Source: Pseudarthrobacter sp. Fe7 (GTDB lineage Bacteria; Actinomycetota; Actinomycetes; Actinomycetales; Micrococcaceae). From it: a DNA stretch of 64,000 nt. This document shows, in pieces, positions 2,292 to 51,457 of the stretch (within the stretch, counting starts at the first letter, position 1; each line of letters starts with the position of its first letter). The position numbers were made by a program, and so were the translations under genes. The stretch lies in assembly GCA_024372495.1 (NCBI GenBank), contig CP099977.1:124001-188000 (forward strand). The letters run 5' to 3'. The notes under the pieces are model-generated. The model was not told the origin of the DNA. It made no database searches and worked only from the letters and a program-made list of their open reading frames with translations.

Positions 2292-2326
2292 GCAGTACCG
2301 TCAGGGAGCTCCGGTAGGGTGGCCCC

Positions 2327-3087
2327 ATGCCTATCGAATCCATTGAAATCACTGCCGCAGAAGGCACCGCAGAGGCCCTGGTGGTTCGCCCGTCCACCGG
2401 AACCGGCCCATTCCCCGGCGTCATCCTCTACATGGATGCGTTCGGCCTGCGCCCCCGCATCCAGGACATGGCCCAGCGCATCGCCGACTGGGGCTATGTG
2501 GTGCTGGCACCGAACGTTTTCTACCGTGAAGGAACGGCTGCCGAGCCTGGCCCCGGCCGTGGACATGACCACCCAGGAGGGCCGCGAAGCTGCCGGCAAG
2601 GCAGCCTTCCCGCGGGTCGGCCGCCTGACCTCGGACAAGGCCGTGCCGGACATCGAGGCCTGGGTTTCCGCGCTGGCCGCGCTCGACGACGTGGCGCCGG
2701 GTCCCATCGGCACCACCGGTTACTGCATGGGCGCCCGGCTCGCCGTCCGCACCGCCACCTCCCACCCCGAGGACGTGGCAGCGTGCGGCGGCTTCCATGG
2801 CGGCGGCTTGGCCACGGACGAGCCGGACAGTCCGCACGTGGGGCTTGGAAATGCCCGGGCGCGGTTCGTGTTCGGCCATGCCGACAAGGACCGGAGCATG
2901 GATCCCGACGCCGTTGCCCGCCTGGGTGGGGCGCTCAAGGACGCGGGCCTCGAAGCATCCAACGAAATCTATGAAGGTGCGCCGCACGGCTACACCATGG
3001 CGGACACGTCAGCGTTCCACCCGGAAGCCACCGAGCGGCATTTCCAGGAGCCTGCGGGCGTTGCTGGACGGGACGCTGAAGGCCTGA
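2327..3087 (+). CDS. dienelactone hydrolase family protein
   Basis: An alpha/beta hydrolase of about 253 residues. The Cys-Asp-His triad of dienelactone hydrolases is visible: Cys in GYCMGA, Asp in FGHADKDRSM and His in GAPHGYT. The N-terminal GTGPFPGVILYMDAFGL strand-loop is also typical. Substrate is unknown; it is probably cytoplasmic, with no signal peptide. Two breaks, at 2546 and 3051, are both GAGCCTG where GAGCTG restores the frame (TAAELAPAV and HFQELRALL). It starts 35 nt after tgt and may be co-transcribed with it. Confidence 0.85.
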
Positions 3088-3109
3088 CCCGGCCCGCCGC
3101 CGTCGAACC

Positions 3110-3165
3110 CGCCGGAAAGCTGCCGCTTCGCCGGAACGTTTCGGCGATCCGGACGGTTTCCGGCG
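3110..3165. repeat. 56-bp palindromic element, family 1, copy A
   Basis: Four half-sites in fixed geometry. CGCCGGAA occurs at 3110 and 3129 (19-nt spacing); its inverted form occurs as TTTCGGCG ending at 3146 and TTCCGGCG ending at 3165 (again 19 nt). The central gap is 2 nt. Total length is 56 bp, the same as copies B and C. It lies 89 nt upstream of the DUF559 gene. Confidence 0.85.
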
Positions 3166-3254
3166 ACCCTGGCACGCGGGACCGCCCTGGCGGGTTTTCC
3201 ACATGACGACGACGGCGCCTTCCGGGGCTGCCGCAGCCGCAGGATCCTGTCGGG

Positions 3255-4194
3255 ATGACACCACAGCAGCCAGCCCGTCTCCCCGCACTTCCAGACACCC
3301 GCAACCTGTGGCGAACCGGGCAATTGCACGAGATGGGCCTCAATTCCAGGGCCATCAAGGCCTTGATCCTCAACGGGAAGCTGGTCCGCCTCCGGCATGG
3401 CTGCTACATCCGCGCTGAGCTGTGGGAGAAGCAGACGGGTCCTGCCCGCAGCAGGCAGTTGATTCGAGCCCATGCGCACGGGACGCTGACCAGGCTCGAC
3501 GGGCGGCTACGTGTACAGCCACACCTCGGCCGCCCGGCTGCATGGTTTGTATCTATGGGATGTTGATGACCTGATCCACCTTCTGCTGCCGGGAAGACCG
3601 TCCAACGAGCGGCTCGGCAAGGATGTCCGCGGCCATACCCGGCCCTGGAACGCGCCAGAGGTGGTGACTCTCGGAGGCTTACGGGTGACCTCGCTGGAGC
3701 GGACTGCAGTGGATTGCGCCATGATGCTGGGTTACCGGCAGGCACTGATACTGATGGACCACGCCCTCCGGCTCGGTGCAGACAAATCCCTCATGGAAAG
3801 AATGGCTGACGGCCTGCAAGGACGCCGCGGGATCCGGACCCTCCGGCTCGCGCTCACCCACGCAGATCCGCGTTCGGAGTCGGCCGGTGAGACACTGACC
3901 CGCGAACTCCTGATTCGGCTCAACCTTCCCCTGCCGGAGCCCCAGGTCGGTGTAGCTACGCCCGCGGGCCGCTACCGCCTGGATTTCGCCTGGAAGGAAA
4001 AGAAGGTGGCCCTCGAATTCGACGGGAAAACGAAGTACTTCGACTACAAGCCCACGGCCGAGGTGCTGTTCCAGGAACGGCAGCGGGAGAATGCCCTCAC
4101 CGAGAATGGGTGGACCTTTGTGCGCGTGACATGGGCCGACCTCTTCCGCGAACACGAGTTCAAAGCCCGCGTCCTGGCCGCGCTCCGACGGTAG
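3255..4194 (+). CDS. AbiEi-like N-terminus plus DUF559 (VSR-like) nuclease-fold protein, paralogue 1
   Basis: About 312 residues. The N-terminal half resembles the winged-helix of AbiEi-type regulators (residues about 20-60, GLNSRAIKALILNGKLVRLR). The C-terminal 110 residues resemble DUF559, a PD-(D/E)XK, Vsr-like fold: LDFAW...KKVALEFDGKTKY gives the acidic and Lys residues, and QRENALTENGWTFVRVTW the last strand. Activity is not established. The frame breaks at 3493 (CAGGCTCG for CAGCTCG). Identical 56-bp palindromic elements lie 89 nt upstream and 24 nt downstream. A divergent paralogue at 50403-51344 is likewise flanked by palindromes. Confidence 0.75.
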
Positions 4195-4218
4195 CCCCAT
4201 ACCTCCGGAGCGCCAAAC

Positions 4219-4274
4219 CGCCGGAACGGGACCAGATCGCCGGTTCTTTCCGGCGAACCAGCACCTTTCCGGCG
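4219..4274. repeat. 56-bp palindromic element, family 1, copy B
   Basis: Half-sites CGCCGGAA at 4219, CGCCGGTT at 4238, TTCCGGCG ending at 4255 and TTCCGGCG ending at 4274. The 19-2-19 geometry and 56-bp length are identical to copies A and C. The spacers share AGATCGCCGG and CGGCGAACC with copy C. It lies between the DUF559 gene and pdxK, 91 nt before the pdxK start. Confidence 0.85.
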
Positions 4275-4365
4275 TGTCGGGATCCGGGGGCGTCCCGTGG
4301 ACGGCACGCTGAAGGCCTGCGCACCGGTTTGGCAGGGGTCCGACGCCGGGTGGCAGGATGGGTGG

Positions 4366-5225
4366 ATGACTTCCGTTTCCCCTGATGCCACGCTGTCCGC
4401 GAACGCCCCCGCCGTCGTCCTCACCATCGCCGGCTCCGAGGCCACGGGCGGCGCCGGCGCACAGGCCGACCTGAAGACCTTCCAGGAGCCTGGGCGTCTT
4501 CGGCATCGCCAACCTCACCTGCATCGTGTCCTTCGACCCGAAGGACAGCTGGAACCACCGGTTCGTGCCGGTGGACCAGCAGGTGATCGCGGACCAGGCT
4601 GGAGGCGACGACGGCGGCGTACGGTCCGGCGTCGGGCGCACCTTCCGCGTTGGATACGGTGAAAATCGGCATGCTGGGCAGCCCGGCCACCATCAGCACA
4701 GTGGCAAGCGCACTGCAGGAGAACAGCTTCGCCAATGTGGTCCTGGACCCAGTGCTGATCTGCAAGGGCCAGGAGCCCGGCCACGCGCTGGACACGGACC
4801 AGGCGCTGAAAGCCCAGATCCTGCCGCTGGCCACGTTCGTCACCCCCAACCACTTCGAGGCGGAGTCACTGTCCGGCCTGGAGATCACGGATGTGGAGTC
4901 ACTCAAGGCAGCAGCCGTCCGCATCCATGAACTCAGCGATGCGGCAGTCCTGGCCAAGGGCGGGGTGCGGCTGGAAGGCCCGGACGCCGTCGACGTTTTC
5001 TATGACGGCGAGACCCTCGAAGTCCTGCGCGCCCCCAAGGTGGGCGAGGTGGCCGTTTCCGGCGCCGGTTGCTCGCTCGCAGCCGCCGTGACGGCGGAAC
5101 TGGCCAAGGGTGCCAGCCCGCTGGAGGCCGCACGGACCGCCAAGGAGTTCGTCACCGCAGGCATCCGCAACCGGGTTGCCTCCGGCGCCCCGTTCGATGC
5201 CCTGTGGCAGGGCGGCGCCCGCTAG
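4366..5225 (+). CDS. pdxK: pyridoxine/pyridoxal kinase of the ThiD-like Bacillus type
   Basis: Ribokinase-fold kinase phosphorylating a B6 vitamer or hydroxymethylpyrimidine. About 285 residues. Seen: TIAGSEATGGAGAQADLKTF (N-terminal substrate loop), SFDPKDSWNHRFVPVD, DPVLICKG, TPNHFEAESLSG, and GAGCSLAAAVTAELAKGA with the anion-hole GAGC. The NSWNH-like and (V/L)CKG motifs match Bacillus PdxK better than classical ThiD, so pyridoxine kinase is the better name, but ThiD activity is possible. Two breaks, at 4489 (GAGCCTG) and 4597 (AGGCTG), both revert to AGCTG. ATG 4366 follows GGATGGGTGG. Confidence 0.85.
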
Positions 5226-5248
5226 AACCTCTCTCCCCGCGCCGGGTT

Positions 5249-5304
5249 CGCCGGAAACCCTCGAGATCGCCGGAATTGTGCGGCGAACCCGGCAGTTTCC
5301 GGCG
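5249..5304. repeat. 56-bp palindromic element, family 1, copy C
   Basis: Half-sites CGCCGGAA at 5249 and 5268, TGCGGCG ending at 5285 and TTCCGGCG ending at 5304. Arms of 11 bp (TTCGCCGGAAA / TTTCCGGCGAA) pair perfectly. It occupies the 93-nt gap between the convergent pdxK and poxB genes, so it could also act as a bidirectional terminator hairpin, although no T-tract follows. Confidence 0.85.
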
Positions 5305-5318
5305 AACTCGACGTGTGC

Positions 5319-7066
5319 CTAGCGCCGGGGGATGTTGCGCAGGTTGCTGCGGGCCATGCTTACGGCCTCGCCCGCCCCCGGTTGAGGACCACCTTGGACA
5401 TGGCGGTAGCGAACCCGATGACCTGCGAGCCGGAGATCTTGGGCGGGATGGACAGCGCCTTGGGGTCGGTGATGAGCTCCACAAGTGACGGGCCGGGGTG
5501 CGCGAAGGCTTCCCGGTACGCTGCCTCGATCTGCGCCGGATCCTGGACCCGGACGGCGTGGAAGCCCAGCGCCTGTGCCACCGCCGCGTAGTTGGCGTCC
5601 GGGACGTCCACGCCGAAATCGGGCAGGCCGTCCACCAGCATCTCGAGCTTGACCATGCCCAGGGTGGAGTTGTTGAACACCACCACGTTGACCGGCAGCT
5701 TGTAGGCGGCGGCAGTGATGAGCTCGCCCAGCAGCATGGACAGCCCGCCGTCGCCGGACACCGAGATGACCTGGCGCCCGGGATACGCCAACTGGGCGCC
5801 GATGGCGTGCGGCAGGGCGTTGGCCATGGAGCCGTGCAGGAAGGACCCGATGAGCCGGCGGGTGCCCAGCGGGTTGATGTAGCGCGCGGTCCAGACGTTG
5901 CACATGCCGGTGTCCGCGGTGAAGATGGCGTCCTCGGCGGCCACCTGGTCCAGCAGCGACGCCGCATACTCTGGGTGGATGGGCTGCTTCTTCTCCACCT
6001 TCCGCGTGTAGGCGCCCACGGCCTTGTTCATCAGCCGGTCATGCTTCTTGAGCATCTGGTCCAGGAACCGTCGGCTCTTCTTGGCCTTCACCAGCGGCAG
6101 CAGCGCGCGCAGGGTGGGCAGCACGTCGCCGTGGACGGCAATGTCGACGTCGGTCCGGCGGCCCAGCCGGTGGGCCACCCGGTCCACCTGCGCGGTGCGG
6201 GTGTCCGGCAGGAACTGGTCGTAGGGGAAATCCGTACCCAGCAGGATCAGCAGGTCGGCGTCTTCGATGCCTTCCGCGGCGGCCCCGTATCCCAAGAGCC
6301 CGGTCATGCCGATATCGAACGGGTTGTCGTACTGGACAAAATCCTTGCCGCGCAGCGAGTGCCCCACCGGCGCCTTGGCCAGTTCGGCGAGCGCCATCAG
6401 CTCGCTGTGCGCCCCTTCCACGCCGGCGCCCGCGAAGATGGCCACCTTGGCGGAGTCGTTGATCGCATCCGCCAGGGCCTGAACGCTTGCCGGGTCCGGG
6501 ACCAGGCTGGCAGGCCGGAACGTGGCGGGCAGCGGCGTGGGGCCTGCGGCTTCCAGCCCGGCGATGTCCCCGGGAAGGGTCACGACGGCCACTCCGCCGA
6601 GCCCCAGCGCATGCTGGATGGCACTGTGCATCACCCGGGGCGCCTGCTCCGCGGTACTGACCAGTTCCGAATACACCGAGCACTCGTTGAAGAGCCGGTC
6701 CGGGTGGGTCTCCTGGAAGAAGCTGCTGCCGATCTGCTTACTGGGGATGTGCGAGGCGATGGCCAGCACCGGCGCACCGGAGCGGTTGGCGTCGTAGAGT
6801 CCGTTGATCAGGTGCAGGTTTCCGGGGCCGCAGGATCCGGCACACACGGCAAGCTTGCCGGTGAGCTGGGCTTCGGCTGCGGCCGCAAATGCGGCGGCCT
6901 CCTCATGGCGTACGTGGATCCAGTCGATGCCGCCCTTCGCGGAGCCTCCGGTCTGGCGCACGGCGTCCACGATCGGGTTGAGGCTGTCACCCACAATCCC
7001 GTAGATCCGCTGCACGCCGGCAGCCTGGAGTTGTTCGATGAGCTGGGTGGCAAGTTCCTTGGCCAT
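5319..7066 (-). CDS. poxB: thiamine-diphosphate-dependent pyruvate oxidase/dehydrogenase (quinone)
   Basis: Converts pyruvate to acetate and CO2 with electrons passed to quinone; a peripheral membrane enzyme using ThDP and FAD. About 582 residues. Domains in order: N-terminal PYR domain (IYGIVGDSLNPI, RHEEAAAFAA with the catalytic Glu, AGSCGPGNLHLINGLYDA), middle FAD/TPP_M domain, and C-terminal PP domain with ThDP motif SGDGGLSM...FNNSTLGM. The start is ATG at 7066. The frame ends prematurely at 5360; one missing G in a G-run near 5379 restores an end in MARSNLRNIPRR with TAG at 5319. PoxB supplies acetate, which the nearby aceA-aceB genes can assimilate. Confidence 0.9.
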
Positions 7067-7164
7067 GGGTGCAGACTCCCGCGATTGTGGTGGTGTGCTG
7101 ACATGGCCAATATAGCCCGCCCACCGCGGCGGGCAGTTGGGAACAGGCAGCCAGCAAGCCCAAA

Positions 7165-7216
7165 CAAAGGAGGCGTACGACGGCGGCCCGGCAGCCGCCG
7201 TCGTACGCCTCCTTTG
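7165..7216 (-). terminator. perfect 23-bp inverted repeat, probable terminator of the MHS transporter gene
   Basis: Left arm 7165-7187 and right arm 7194-7216 are perfect 23-bp complements (core GGAGGCGTACGACGGCGGC) around a 6-nt loop. It sits 30 nt past the stop of the transporter gene and upstream of poxB. On the minus strand it is followed by TTTGGGC, not a full T-tract. It could also be a palindromic repeat; only one copy is seen in this window. Confidence 0.6.
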
Positions 7217-7245
7217 GGAGGCAGGCACCTTTGGTGCCGTCCGGA

Positions 7246-11992: not shown

Positions 11993-12124
11993 ACGCCCGC
12001 GCACCTTTGGCGGCTTAACCCAAACGCCCCATCACTTTCATCAGGAAAGTGATGGGGCGTCGGCAGGAAACCGGCAGGATCTGAGCGGGCGTTGCTGGAA
12101 TAGCCGCAAAATGTGAGCGGGCGT
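11993..12124. repeat. array of an 11-nt motif, locus 1, with central hairpin
   Basis: Inverted motif copies ACGCCCGCGCA (11993) and ACGCCCCATCA (12024) lie left of centre. Direct copies TGATGGGGCGT (12050), TGAGCGGGCGT (12082) and TGAGCGGGCGT (12114) lie to the right. Spacing is 31 nt on the left and exactly 32 nt on the right. The inner pair extends to perfect 16-bp arms (12024-12039 / 12045-12060). It lies between the convergent TAXI and ramB genes, so the hairpin may also terminate both. Confidence 0.8.
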
Positions 12125-17112: not shown

Positions 17113-17213
17113 ACCCCCGCTCACTTGTTGCAGGAAAACCCGGAACGCCCGCTCACTTTCCCAAAGAAAGTGAGCGGGCGTTCCGCCGTTTAGTGCAAGA
17201 AGTGAGCGGGCGT
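17113..17213. repeat. array of an 11-nt motif, locus 2, with central hairpin
   Basis: Inverted copies ACCCCCGCTCA (17113) and ACGCCCGCTCA (17145), then direct copies TGAGCGGGCGT at 17171 and 17203; every same-strand spacing is 32 nt. The inner pair extends to perfect 19-bp arms, 17142-17160 and 17166-17184. The central gap between inner motifs is 15 nt, as at locus 1. It lies between the convergent aceB and cynX-like genes. Confidence 0.85.
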
Positions 17214-50344: not shown

Positions 50345-50400
50345 CGATTGCTCCGTAACTGCCCTTTCGAGCACTCAAAACGGCAGTTACGGAGCAATCG
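50345..50400. repeat. palindromic element, family 3, copy 1
   Basis: Perfect 19-bp arms CGATTGCTCCGTAACTGCC (50345-50363) and its complement (50382-50400), followed by TTTTAAG. It is placed as the purL terminator and abuts the DUF559 stop at 50403. A near-identical element lies at the other end of that gene. Confidence 0.85.
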
Positions 50401-50402
50401 TT

Positions 50403-51344
50403 TTAAGAACCCCGACGCCAACCTGCCTGCACCAGGGCAACGAGTACTTTGGCCGCAGCCGGTTTAGCGTCGTTGACCATGTGGCGCTTTGAGATCCTGA
50501 CTTCCGTCCAGCCCAAGGCGGCATACCGTTCAGAGCGCGTTATGTCCCTGGCGATCTGCCCCTCTTCGGCATGGTGCTCGCCCTCGTATTCGATCCCGAT
50601 CCGGTACTTCCGGTATGAGAGGTCAGGCTCGTGATGCCGCCTGCCTGTGTCATCGATGATCGGAACATTCAATTCCGGCTCGGGCAGGCCGGCCCGGACC
50701 AACGCCAGCCGAAGCAGGGTTTCCTGGGGCGAGTCCGAACCCACACGGATCAGCTGGATGGCCTCCTTGGCTTTGCGGATTCCCCGCTTCCCTTTATGCC
50801 GGTCAATCATCCGTTGAAGATCGCTTACGGAGCACAGCGGCATATCGCGGCCTTCAAGTTCCGGCCTCGGCACGCGGGCGCAACTGTCACCGGCCACTAC
50901 AAGGGCATCGAGGCTGAGCAGCTCAGCGAGGTCCAGCCATGTTCGTTCCGGTGTCGTGACAGGAATACCCTCATGAACTGTCACTTCATCGTCGTACAGC
51001 TTCATTCTGTGGACGATCACATGTGGTCGATCGAGGTGGGCTTCACCCTCGGGTCGGATGATGTGGTGCATGTCGGGTTTCTCCTTCCGCAGCCGAAGAG
51101 GCAGCGAAAGCAGCCCTGCGGCGGTGAGGTGGGATGCGGCGCATCGCTTGTTAACCTCAATGAATGGCCGCACCCGCGTGCTCAACGGTTGTTCCGTCGT
51201 CGGGCCGTCTTCCCTGATGCCCTTGCCAAGCCGCGTCAGGGACCGATGCCGCAGGCGTTTGGCTGAGACGCCCGCCTGTCCAGCCTCGGCTGCGGTGAAC
51301 GGACGGCCTTTGAGTGCTGCCGGGAGCGGGAGCGGAGTCTTCAT
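50403..51344 (-). CDS. AbiEi-like/DUF559 (VSR-like) nuclease-fold protein, paralogue 2
   Basis: Intact 313 residues. N-terminal winged-helix-like region (FTAAEAGQAGVSAKRLRHRSLTRLGKGI), a middle region with VTTPERTWLDLAELLSLDALVVAGD, and a C-terminal PD-(D/E)XK-like domain: ETLLRLALVRAGLPEPELNV, HEPDLSYRKYRIGIEYEGEHH and YAALGWTEVRISKRH. Same architecture as the 3255-4194 product but diverged. It sits precisely between two palindromic elements (50345-50400 and 51398-51457). Function not established. Confidence 0.78.
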   Translation of the reverse strand: MKTPLPLPAALKGRPFTAAEAGQAGVSAKRLRHRSLTRLGKGIREDGPTTEQPLSTRVRPFIEVNKRCAASHLTAAGLLSLPLRLRKEKPDMHHIIRPEGEAHLDRPHVIVHRMKLYDDEVTVHEGIPVTTPERTWLDLAELLSLDALVVAGDSCARVPRPELEGRDMPLCSVSDLQRMIDRHKGKRGIRKAKEAIQLIRVGSDSPQETLLRLALVRAGLPEPELNVPIIDDTGRRHHEPDLSYRKYRIGIEYEGEHHAEEGQIARDITRSERYAALGWTEVRISKRHMVNDAKPAAAKVLVALVQAGWRRGS

Positions 51345-51397
51345 CGGTCCATAAGACCAGAACGGCGCTGCTGTCCGCAGAAGTTATCCACACCCTC

Positions 51398-51457
51398 ATC
51401 GGTTGCTCCGTAAACGCCCTTTTGACGCTTCATAAGGGCGTTTACGGAGCAATCGAT
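51398..51457. repeat. palindromic element, family 3, copy 2
   Basis: 24-bp arms 51398-51421 and 51434-51457 (core TTGCTCCGTAAACGCCCTT) with one G:A difference. Compared with copy 1, two positions differ in the left arm and both are matched by changes in the right arm. Both copies are preceded by CCCTCAT. It lies between DUF559 and the DUF503 gene. Confidence 0.85.

Follow-up and report, generated by a model that had tools for sequence, protein, structure and literature searches.

We report that a gene in the actinobacterium Pseudarthrobacter sp. Fe7, encoding a two-part protein with a predicted AbiEi-like DNA-binding part and a predicted Vsr-like (DUF559-type) nuclease part, is bracketed by two copies of a 56-bp palindromic element, and that palindromes in the same two places beside related genes appear to follow the protein in sequence. 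The gene lies in a 64,000-nucleotide stretch of contig CP099977.1 (positions 124,001 to 188,000 of the forward strand; GenBank assembly GCA_024372495.1), which was analysed as a whole and is hereafter called the window. Comparison across genomes strongly supports a pairing of protein clade and palindrome, and we consider it fairly probable that each pair is a co-evolved cognate nuclease and palindrome working in the manner of REPINs (that is, doublets of repetitive extragenic palindromic (REP) sequences) and their REP-associated tyrosine transposases (RAYTs), with an unrelated enzyme. The computed features that carry this argument are the geometry of the element, its dispersal, its position on both sides of the gene in most clades, its clade-specific sequence, the association of types I and II with particular genomes and the predicted fold of the protein.

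Type I elements in the window

Three copies of the element, here called type I, are located at 3110–3165, 4219–4274 and 5249–5304 (56 bp each, with no strand assigned), exactly where the original prediction had placed them. Their scores against the 32 letters of the ideal half-sites are 31, 30 and 30, respectively, well above the maximum scores of 20 to 25 obtained for this pattern in 20 third-order Markov randomizations of the window, and the only two other window positions that score at least 23 (24 and 23) both overlap these elements. The layout is M-N11-M-NN-M'-N11-M', in which M is CGCCGGAA, and each half is therefore a direct repeat (M-N11-M) of 27 bp that lies 2 bp from the other. The order and geometry of the four half-sites (M, M, M', M') had been correctly predicted, although one half-site is imperfect in every element (TTTCGGCG, CGCCGGTT and GTGCGGCG); the predicted 19 nt between same-strand copies is right as a start-to-start distance but not as a gap (the half-sites are 11 nt apart), and the search pattern offered with the prediction, in which the inner gap was wrong, has 0 matches in the window. 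When folded as DNA, the elements have z scores of −3.7 (−21.7 kcal/mol), −4.7 and −4.5 in the above order. Outside the half-sites, C14 of type I elements is 95% conserved, and positions 12–14 and 43–45 form a TGC/GCA motif that is also present in type II and III elements. An RNA reading of the elements was rejected, as an Rfam scan of 2600–5800 yielded a single chance-level match.

The first two elements lie upstream and downstream, respectively, of the gene (3255–4194, + strand; type I clade). The predicted flanking of a DUF559-type gene by two copies is thus upheld, whereas the gene itself is split in the window by a frameshift into open reading frames (ORFs) at 3255–3566 and 3511–4194; an intact orthologue in a close relative is a single frame of 312 amino acids (L038:8967–9905). 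The frameshift is likely, though not proven, to be an assembly (indel) error, because the completeness of this assembly is 78.9% and the neighbouring frames also look broken (that is, the hydrolase, DUF559-type and thiD/pdxK-like frames all appear interrupted within the 3 kb of 2319–5225). The third element is a solo copy between the thiD/pdxK-like kinase gene, identified by a Phos_pyr_kin match, and a convergent gene that we take to encode a pyruvate oxidase.

Dispersal of the type I repeat

The 4.47-Mb genome contains 8 type I copies (correct register, at most 3 mismatches) and the reversed-pattern control gives 0. At up to 3 mismatches, type I matches were found in 21 of 295 genomes of the family, 19 of them among the 24 genomes of the window's genus; the 2 others have only 3-mismatch, chance-like matches, the reversed control matching 3 genomes. 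In a larger set of 150 genus genomes, 101 carry between 1 and 27 copies apiece, and named records identify these relatives as Arthrobacter in the wide sense (Arthrobacter, Pseudarthrobacter and Paenarthrobacter). A weight matrix built from 148 unique copies has 0 matches of at least 8 bits in 1.05 Mb of reversed sequence. As judged with a simple gene predictor, 85% of the sequence of the retrieved loci is coding, yet 170 of the 188 unique copies there are not within genes. Type I is a dispersed, mostly intergenic repeat that is largely confined to one genus (Arthrobacter sensu lato).

Away from any homologue of the gene lie 80 of the 188 copies, of which 7 are inside predicted genes and 73 are intergenic (convergent, 27; co-directional, 41; divergent, 5). 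Among 852 neighbouring ORF pairs taken as background, 202 are convergent, 491 co-directional and 159 divergent, so that solo elements underuse divergent regions (5/73 versus 159/852).

Palindromes bracket the gene across the genus

A search with the 312-amino-acid orthologue gave matches in 120 of the 150 genus genomes (E ≤ 1e-40). Flanks were read for many of the matches listed, with 20 regions (mostly 57–63% identity) left out, to give a table of 118 rows that includes two duplicates (L038 = L076, L035 = L104); matched pairs were analysed for 115 genes. The predicted enrichment of copies at the DUF559-type gene is borne out, in that, of the 60 type I genes with read flanks, 51 are bracketed by elements, 7 have a single flanking element (including one gene at a contig end and one interrupted gene) and 2 lack one altogether. 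Upstream elements lie 63–143 nt from the aligned part of the type I gene (setting apart the window gene, the aligned part of which is cut by the frameshift) and downstream elements 18–145 nt from it.

More distant homologues in the genus have other palindromes in the same two places (for example, CGATGGTT-N11-CGATGGTT-NN-M'-N11-M', likewise 56 bp). A finder with free period and free gap, applied to the 118 rows, reached a score of 25 or more in 67 upstream and 69 downstream flanks (null median 21, 95th percentile 24, maximum 32), and the best match had a period of 19 in 60 of the 67 and 63 of the 69, respectively. Types I to IV show the layout of four half-sites most clearly, and the inner 19-bp repeat was not seen in types VI, VII and VIII; what all types have in common is therefore the position of the palindrome and its length of about 56 nt.

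For 97 of the 115 genes of the genus, the sequences upstream and downstream agree with each other at 33 or more of 50 letters, a threshold that was picked after viewing a null drawn from distant homologues. By clade, such pairs were found in 51/59 type I, 4/4 type I', 12/13 type II, 12/12 type III/VI, 4/4 type IV and 10/11 type VII genes. Mismatched pairs of distant homologues reached the threshold in 1 of 650 cases; for random chunks of genus loci the 95th percentile is 31, yet the maximum is 50 in 60 draws.

Element sequence and copy number follow the protein

Similarity between elements rises with identity between proteins (Spearman 0.64 for 96 genes; none of 500 permutations reached this value). 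The strongest point is a control for locus. At a locus that we take to be that of tgt, comparison of 42 type I with 12 type II genes gives a median element similarity of 0.525, against a shuffled floor of 0.475 (95th percentile 0.55). The elements of 9 type I genes located elsewhere, by contrast, have a similarity of 0.675 to those of type I genes at tgt, close to the 0.725 found among type I genes at tgt. In addition, two genomes (G409 and G424; loci L107 and L115) carry type I genes at a locus otherwise held by type V genes, and the elements of these genes are more similar to type I (0.75) than to type V (0.59). As type I and II elements at one locus are unrelated and type I elements elsewhere are alike, these comparisons indicate that the palindrome tracks the protein clade and not the locus.

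Copies of types I and II are found chiefly in genomes that carry the corresponding gene. Of the 59 genomes that have a type I gene, 58 contain type I copies (mean 6.85), compared with 40 of the 88 lacking the gene (mean 1.08), which runs counter to the possibility, raised with the original prediction, that copies might be equally common without the gene; this comparison sets aside 3 genomes with partial type I genes and counts as type I G315 (by identity), G321 (in which the gene is interrupted) and the window genome (in which it is frameshifted). After removal of the two flanking copies, 51 of the 59 genomes still have type I copies (mean 4.90; Mann–Whitney p = 3e-11). The tree assigns a type II gene to 13 genomes, all of which carry type II copies (mean 5.3), as do 7 of 59 type I genomes; the former figure is restricted to tree-placed genomes because, of 18 type II genomes, G009, G296 and G340 were assigned by their flanking type II elements (which would be circular), and G373 and G421 by identity alone.

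Predicted structure of the protein

A structure model derived from 67 unmodified homologues (predicted local distance difference test score 89) suggests that the protein combines an AbiEi-type winged-helix DNA-binding part with a nuclease of the Vsr/I-Bth0305I type. Residues 8–204 of the model match the AbiEi antitoxin 6y8q (Z 10.8 over 179 residues, but with a root-mean-square deviation of 7.1), and the winged helix with C-terminal fold by which AbiEi is recognized is seen there; in agreement, the AbiEi model of PADLOC matches at 3e-14 and the type I protein scores slightly below the cut-off of Pfam AbiEi_4. Residues 209–312 match the catalytic domain of the homing endonuclease I-Bth0305I (Z 12.5, root-mean-square deviation 2.1 over 94 residues) and, at Z 8.8, Vsr. 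The PD-(D/E)XK-like nuclease fold characteristic of the Vsr/DUF559 superfamily, together with its conserved acidic residues, is thus seen in the model, and E208, E212, D243 and D256 are invariant in 67/67 homologues. All matches to Pfam MTES_1575 are under the curated cut-off, and an NCBIfam search gave no meaningful match.

In PMC7319586, AbiEi is described as binding two 23-bp inverted repeats, 3 bp apart, in its own promoter, and the related antitoxin Rv2827c as binding two such pairs of inverted repeats, likewise in its own promoter. By analogy, binding of one type I element by two protomers is plausible, because the element (two 27-bp halves, 2 bp apart) resembles the AbiEi site in size.

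Second cassette, distant homologues and loci

A second gene of this kind, intact and encoding 313 amino acids, lies at 50403–51344 on the − strand, beside what we take to be purL. It matches Pfam MTES_1575 at 6.7e-6 (under the curated cut-off), is 29% identical to the first family over 191 amino acids and is bracketed by type VIII palindromes (56 bp each, no strand assigned) at 50345–50400 downstream (25/28 positions paired; fold z −9.7) and 51400–51455 upstream (25/28 positions paired; fold z −10.8). Type VIII copies are found in 71 of 150 genus genomes and the reversed control finds none. Further homologues in the window genome with matching flanks are at L010 and L011, and also, less clearly palindromic, at L013. 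Three more strong palindromes of 56–57 nt in the window (7163–7218, 12014–12070 and 17135–17191) are possibly ordinary terminators.

Elsewhere in the phylum, a homologue at E ≤ 1e-20 is present in 21 of 119 genomes (two of them of the window's genus), and many actinobacteria have several AbiEi-DUF559/Vsr-like proteins per genome. Outside the genus, matched flanking repeats accompany 15 of 26 distant actinobacterial homologues at the same threshold of 33; of these 15, 11 show pairing at 19 or more of 28 positions on one side or both (19 being the 95th percentile of chance).

Between each window gene and its upstream palindrome lies a 9-mer that resembles a DnaA box (TTTTCCACA at 3195–3203 and TTATCCACA at 51384–51392, both on the + strand). 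A strict form of this box, TT[AGT]TCCACA, is found upstream in 70 of the 118 genus rows and downstream in 1 of 118; it lies upstream of 2 of the 26 distant homologues.

Clustering by neighbours indicates several homes for these genes in the genus, with type I cassettes at three loci. Some sites hold different palindrome types in different genomes, since the intergenic site that holds the type I cassette in G311 has a lone type VIII palindrome in G376 (L248). At another site, where G177 has element–gene–element, the cassette is missing from G039 and one element alone lies between the outer flanks, at a kinase-to-element spacing of 3353 (3354 in G177); this allele would be consistent with excision, with a deletion between the repeats and with homing into an element that stands alone. 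When 9 relatives were aligned at the kinase/oxidase junction of the solo window element, 5 were found to carry the element (with a partial deletion in one) and 4 to lack it. Phage or plasmid cargo was considered and rejected, as the searches gave no phage record and a single weak match to a plasmid (32% across 75% of the query).

A proposed model for the nuclease–palindrome pair

We propose that each two-part protein co-evolved with its own palindromic element, two copies of which would bracket the gene as a cassette (that is, palindrome–gene–palindrome), with solo copies lying mostly between genes and seldom in divergent regions. Two protomers may occupy the two 27-bp halves of an element, much as AbiEi occupies its paired repeats, and the nuclease may then nick or cut at the element, perhaps on an extruded or single-stranded hairpin. 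Subsequent repair or replication could copy the palindrome to a new site, move the cassette or remove the cassette to leave one element behind, and the unit would persist as a selfish or domesticated nuclease–repeat pair. A wider scenario, which we advance tentatively and rate at somewhat less than an even chance, is that an actinobacteria-wide class of such AbiEi-Vsr nuclease–palindrome systems arose independently of REPIN/RAYT, with the nuclease copying or homing palindromes and cassette by cutting, perhaps at replication forks; the forks are suggested by the DnaA-like box beside many of the genes.

Several observations weigh against a co-evolved pair of this kind. Matched pairs flank just 4 of 9 type V genes and 0 of 3 in the deepest clade of the genus, and 11 of the 26 distant homologues are without matched flanking repeats. 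The 40 genomes that have type I copies without a type I gene also need explaining, as do the 19 that have type II copies among the 120 with neither a type II nor a type III gene; one genome (G260) has 13 type I copies and no gene match at E ≤ 1e-40, another (G427) has the gene and zero type I copies, and the association tests ignore shared ancestry. Most genes are at a few fixed loci, and movement must therefore be rare; the kinase/oxidase junction (one site in 9 genomes) shows no clean insertion point or target duplication. The spacer arms of type I pair at only 60% (47% expected), and therefore a strict hairpin is not conserved in this type and was rejected, though the arms covary above shuffles. 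Finally, it is from sequence and predicted fold that we infer binding, cleavage and copying of the palindrome by the protein.

Among the alternatives, the one that survives best, although we regard it as unlikely, holds that the elements are operators of the AbiEi type, in which case the protein would repress its own promoter through the upstream copy, the downstream copy would insulate or terminate, solo copies would constitute a regulon or spare terminators, and the nuclease would act on other targets (for example, foreign DNA). The promoter sites of AbiEi and Rv2827c (PMC7319586) and the 63–143 nt between the upstream element and the aligned start of type I genes agree with such a role; an upstream copy alone would indeed suit an AbiEi-style operator, which again counts against the pair, and the 27 convergent, 41 co-directional and 5 divergent solo sites would suit a function at 3′ ends. 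However, the downstream copy has the same sequence and is as regular as the upstream one, genomes hold up to 27 copies, and a regulon would be expected upstream of genes, yet divergent regions are avoided. Termination, for its part, has no need for a sequence specific to each clade, and simple terminators are disfavoured on this ground. We rank cutting with copying or homing, all variants taken together, above a role as operator only.

Pure homing appears more doubtful still. Here the solo element would be the target of a stand-alone homing nuclease, and cutting of an empty element followed by repair from a chromosome that carries the cassette would insert the gene, so that an element stands on each side of it. 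The closest nuclease fold is that of a homing endonuclease (I-Bth0305I), the single element of G039 stands where G177 has the whole cassette at almost identical spacing, and the type I genes of G409 and G424 have kept type I elements at a type V locus; yet most solo elements are unoccupied, the G039 allele is equally explained by deletion between two repeats, and no intron or intein is involved. Hitchhiking of MITE-like repeats (that is, miniature inverted-repeat transposable elements) spread by an unrelated transposase and left beside the gene through shared ancestry is very improbable: repeats of this size are often MITEs or REPs, and the copy-number test had no control for phylogeny, but the palindrome family beside the gene changes from clade to clade, tracking the protein rather than the locus, homologues elsewhere in the phylum have unrelated repeats in the same two places, and 30 genomes searched for Y1 transposases, the one transposase family covered, have none.

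The pairing of nuclease and palindrome would, if correct, be of use in several respects. As far as our searches show, AbiEi-DUF559/Vsr-like proteins have no assigned role, and the palindromes would supply a group of them with a concrete candidate substrate. The many natural protein–element pairs also form a ready series for the study of DNA recognition.

Comparison with known systems

The system fits no described kind known to us as far as a search of PubMed Central shows, and a description in subscription journals or preprints is possible; in PubMed Central full text, which does not extend to those two, we found no paper recognizable by its title or the start of its abstract that links DUF559, MTES_1575 or AbiEi nucleases with palindromes. 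With Vsr and I-Bth0305I the protein shares the predicted fold of its C-terminal nuclease, but it differs in its flanking palindromes and AbiEi-like DNA-binding part, and no intron or intein was seen. A Vsr-like nuclease is likewise common to the MTES_1575-type Vsr restriction endonucleases and the Caulobacter DUF559 protein VsrA (PMC3710099 and PMC12907096, respectively); MTES_1575 differs in being fused to HEPN and other domains (PMC3710099), and the word stem 'palindrom' is absent from the searched texts of both papers. AbiEi antitoxins (AbiE type IV toxin–antitoxin systems and Rv2827c) share the predicted fold of residues 8–204 and paired inverted repeats of similar size beside the gene, whereas here a C-terminal nuclease domain is present and the repeats also occur downstream and throughout the genome.

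The closest parallel is with REPIN/RAYT systems (REPtrons and TIRtrons). RAYT genes and REP repeats are characterized by flanking palindromes, dispersed extragenic copies and co-diversification (PMC3116915 and PMC3733652). The available part of PMC12306157 (RepRanger) contains a table that includes Arthrobacter livingstonensis, and the word RAYT is absent from that part. Shared with these systems are a partner gene, single-copy within its type, that is flanked by its own palindromes, extragenic copies of the same repeats dispersed between other genes, and apparent co-diversification of gene and repeat. The differences concern both partners: RAYT is a Y1 HUH transposase and the enzyme here is a nuclease of the predicted AbiEi-Vsr type, and a REPIN consists of two inverted palindromic REPs whereas the type I halves are direct repeats at 19 bp. 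A RAYT as mover of the repeats was rejected, as a search limited to Y1 transposases (PF01797) found them in 0 of 30 genomes, with control matches in 5 of 14 known genomes. The original prediction of a REPIN-like repeat with a DUF559-type, RAYT-like partner is therefore supported as to the pairing and amended as to membership: because these genomes have no Y1 transposase and the type I halves are not REPs, the nuclease–palindrome pair is a functional analogue of REPIN/RAYT and not a member. If our model is right, it would represent a second, unrelated way to build a partnership of gene and palindrome, and would thus offer an independent system for the questions that REPIN/RAYT poses, namely what maintains the association of enzyme and repeat and by what route the repeat is copied.

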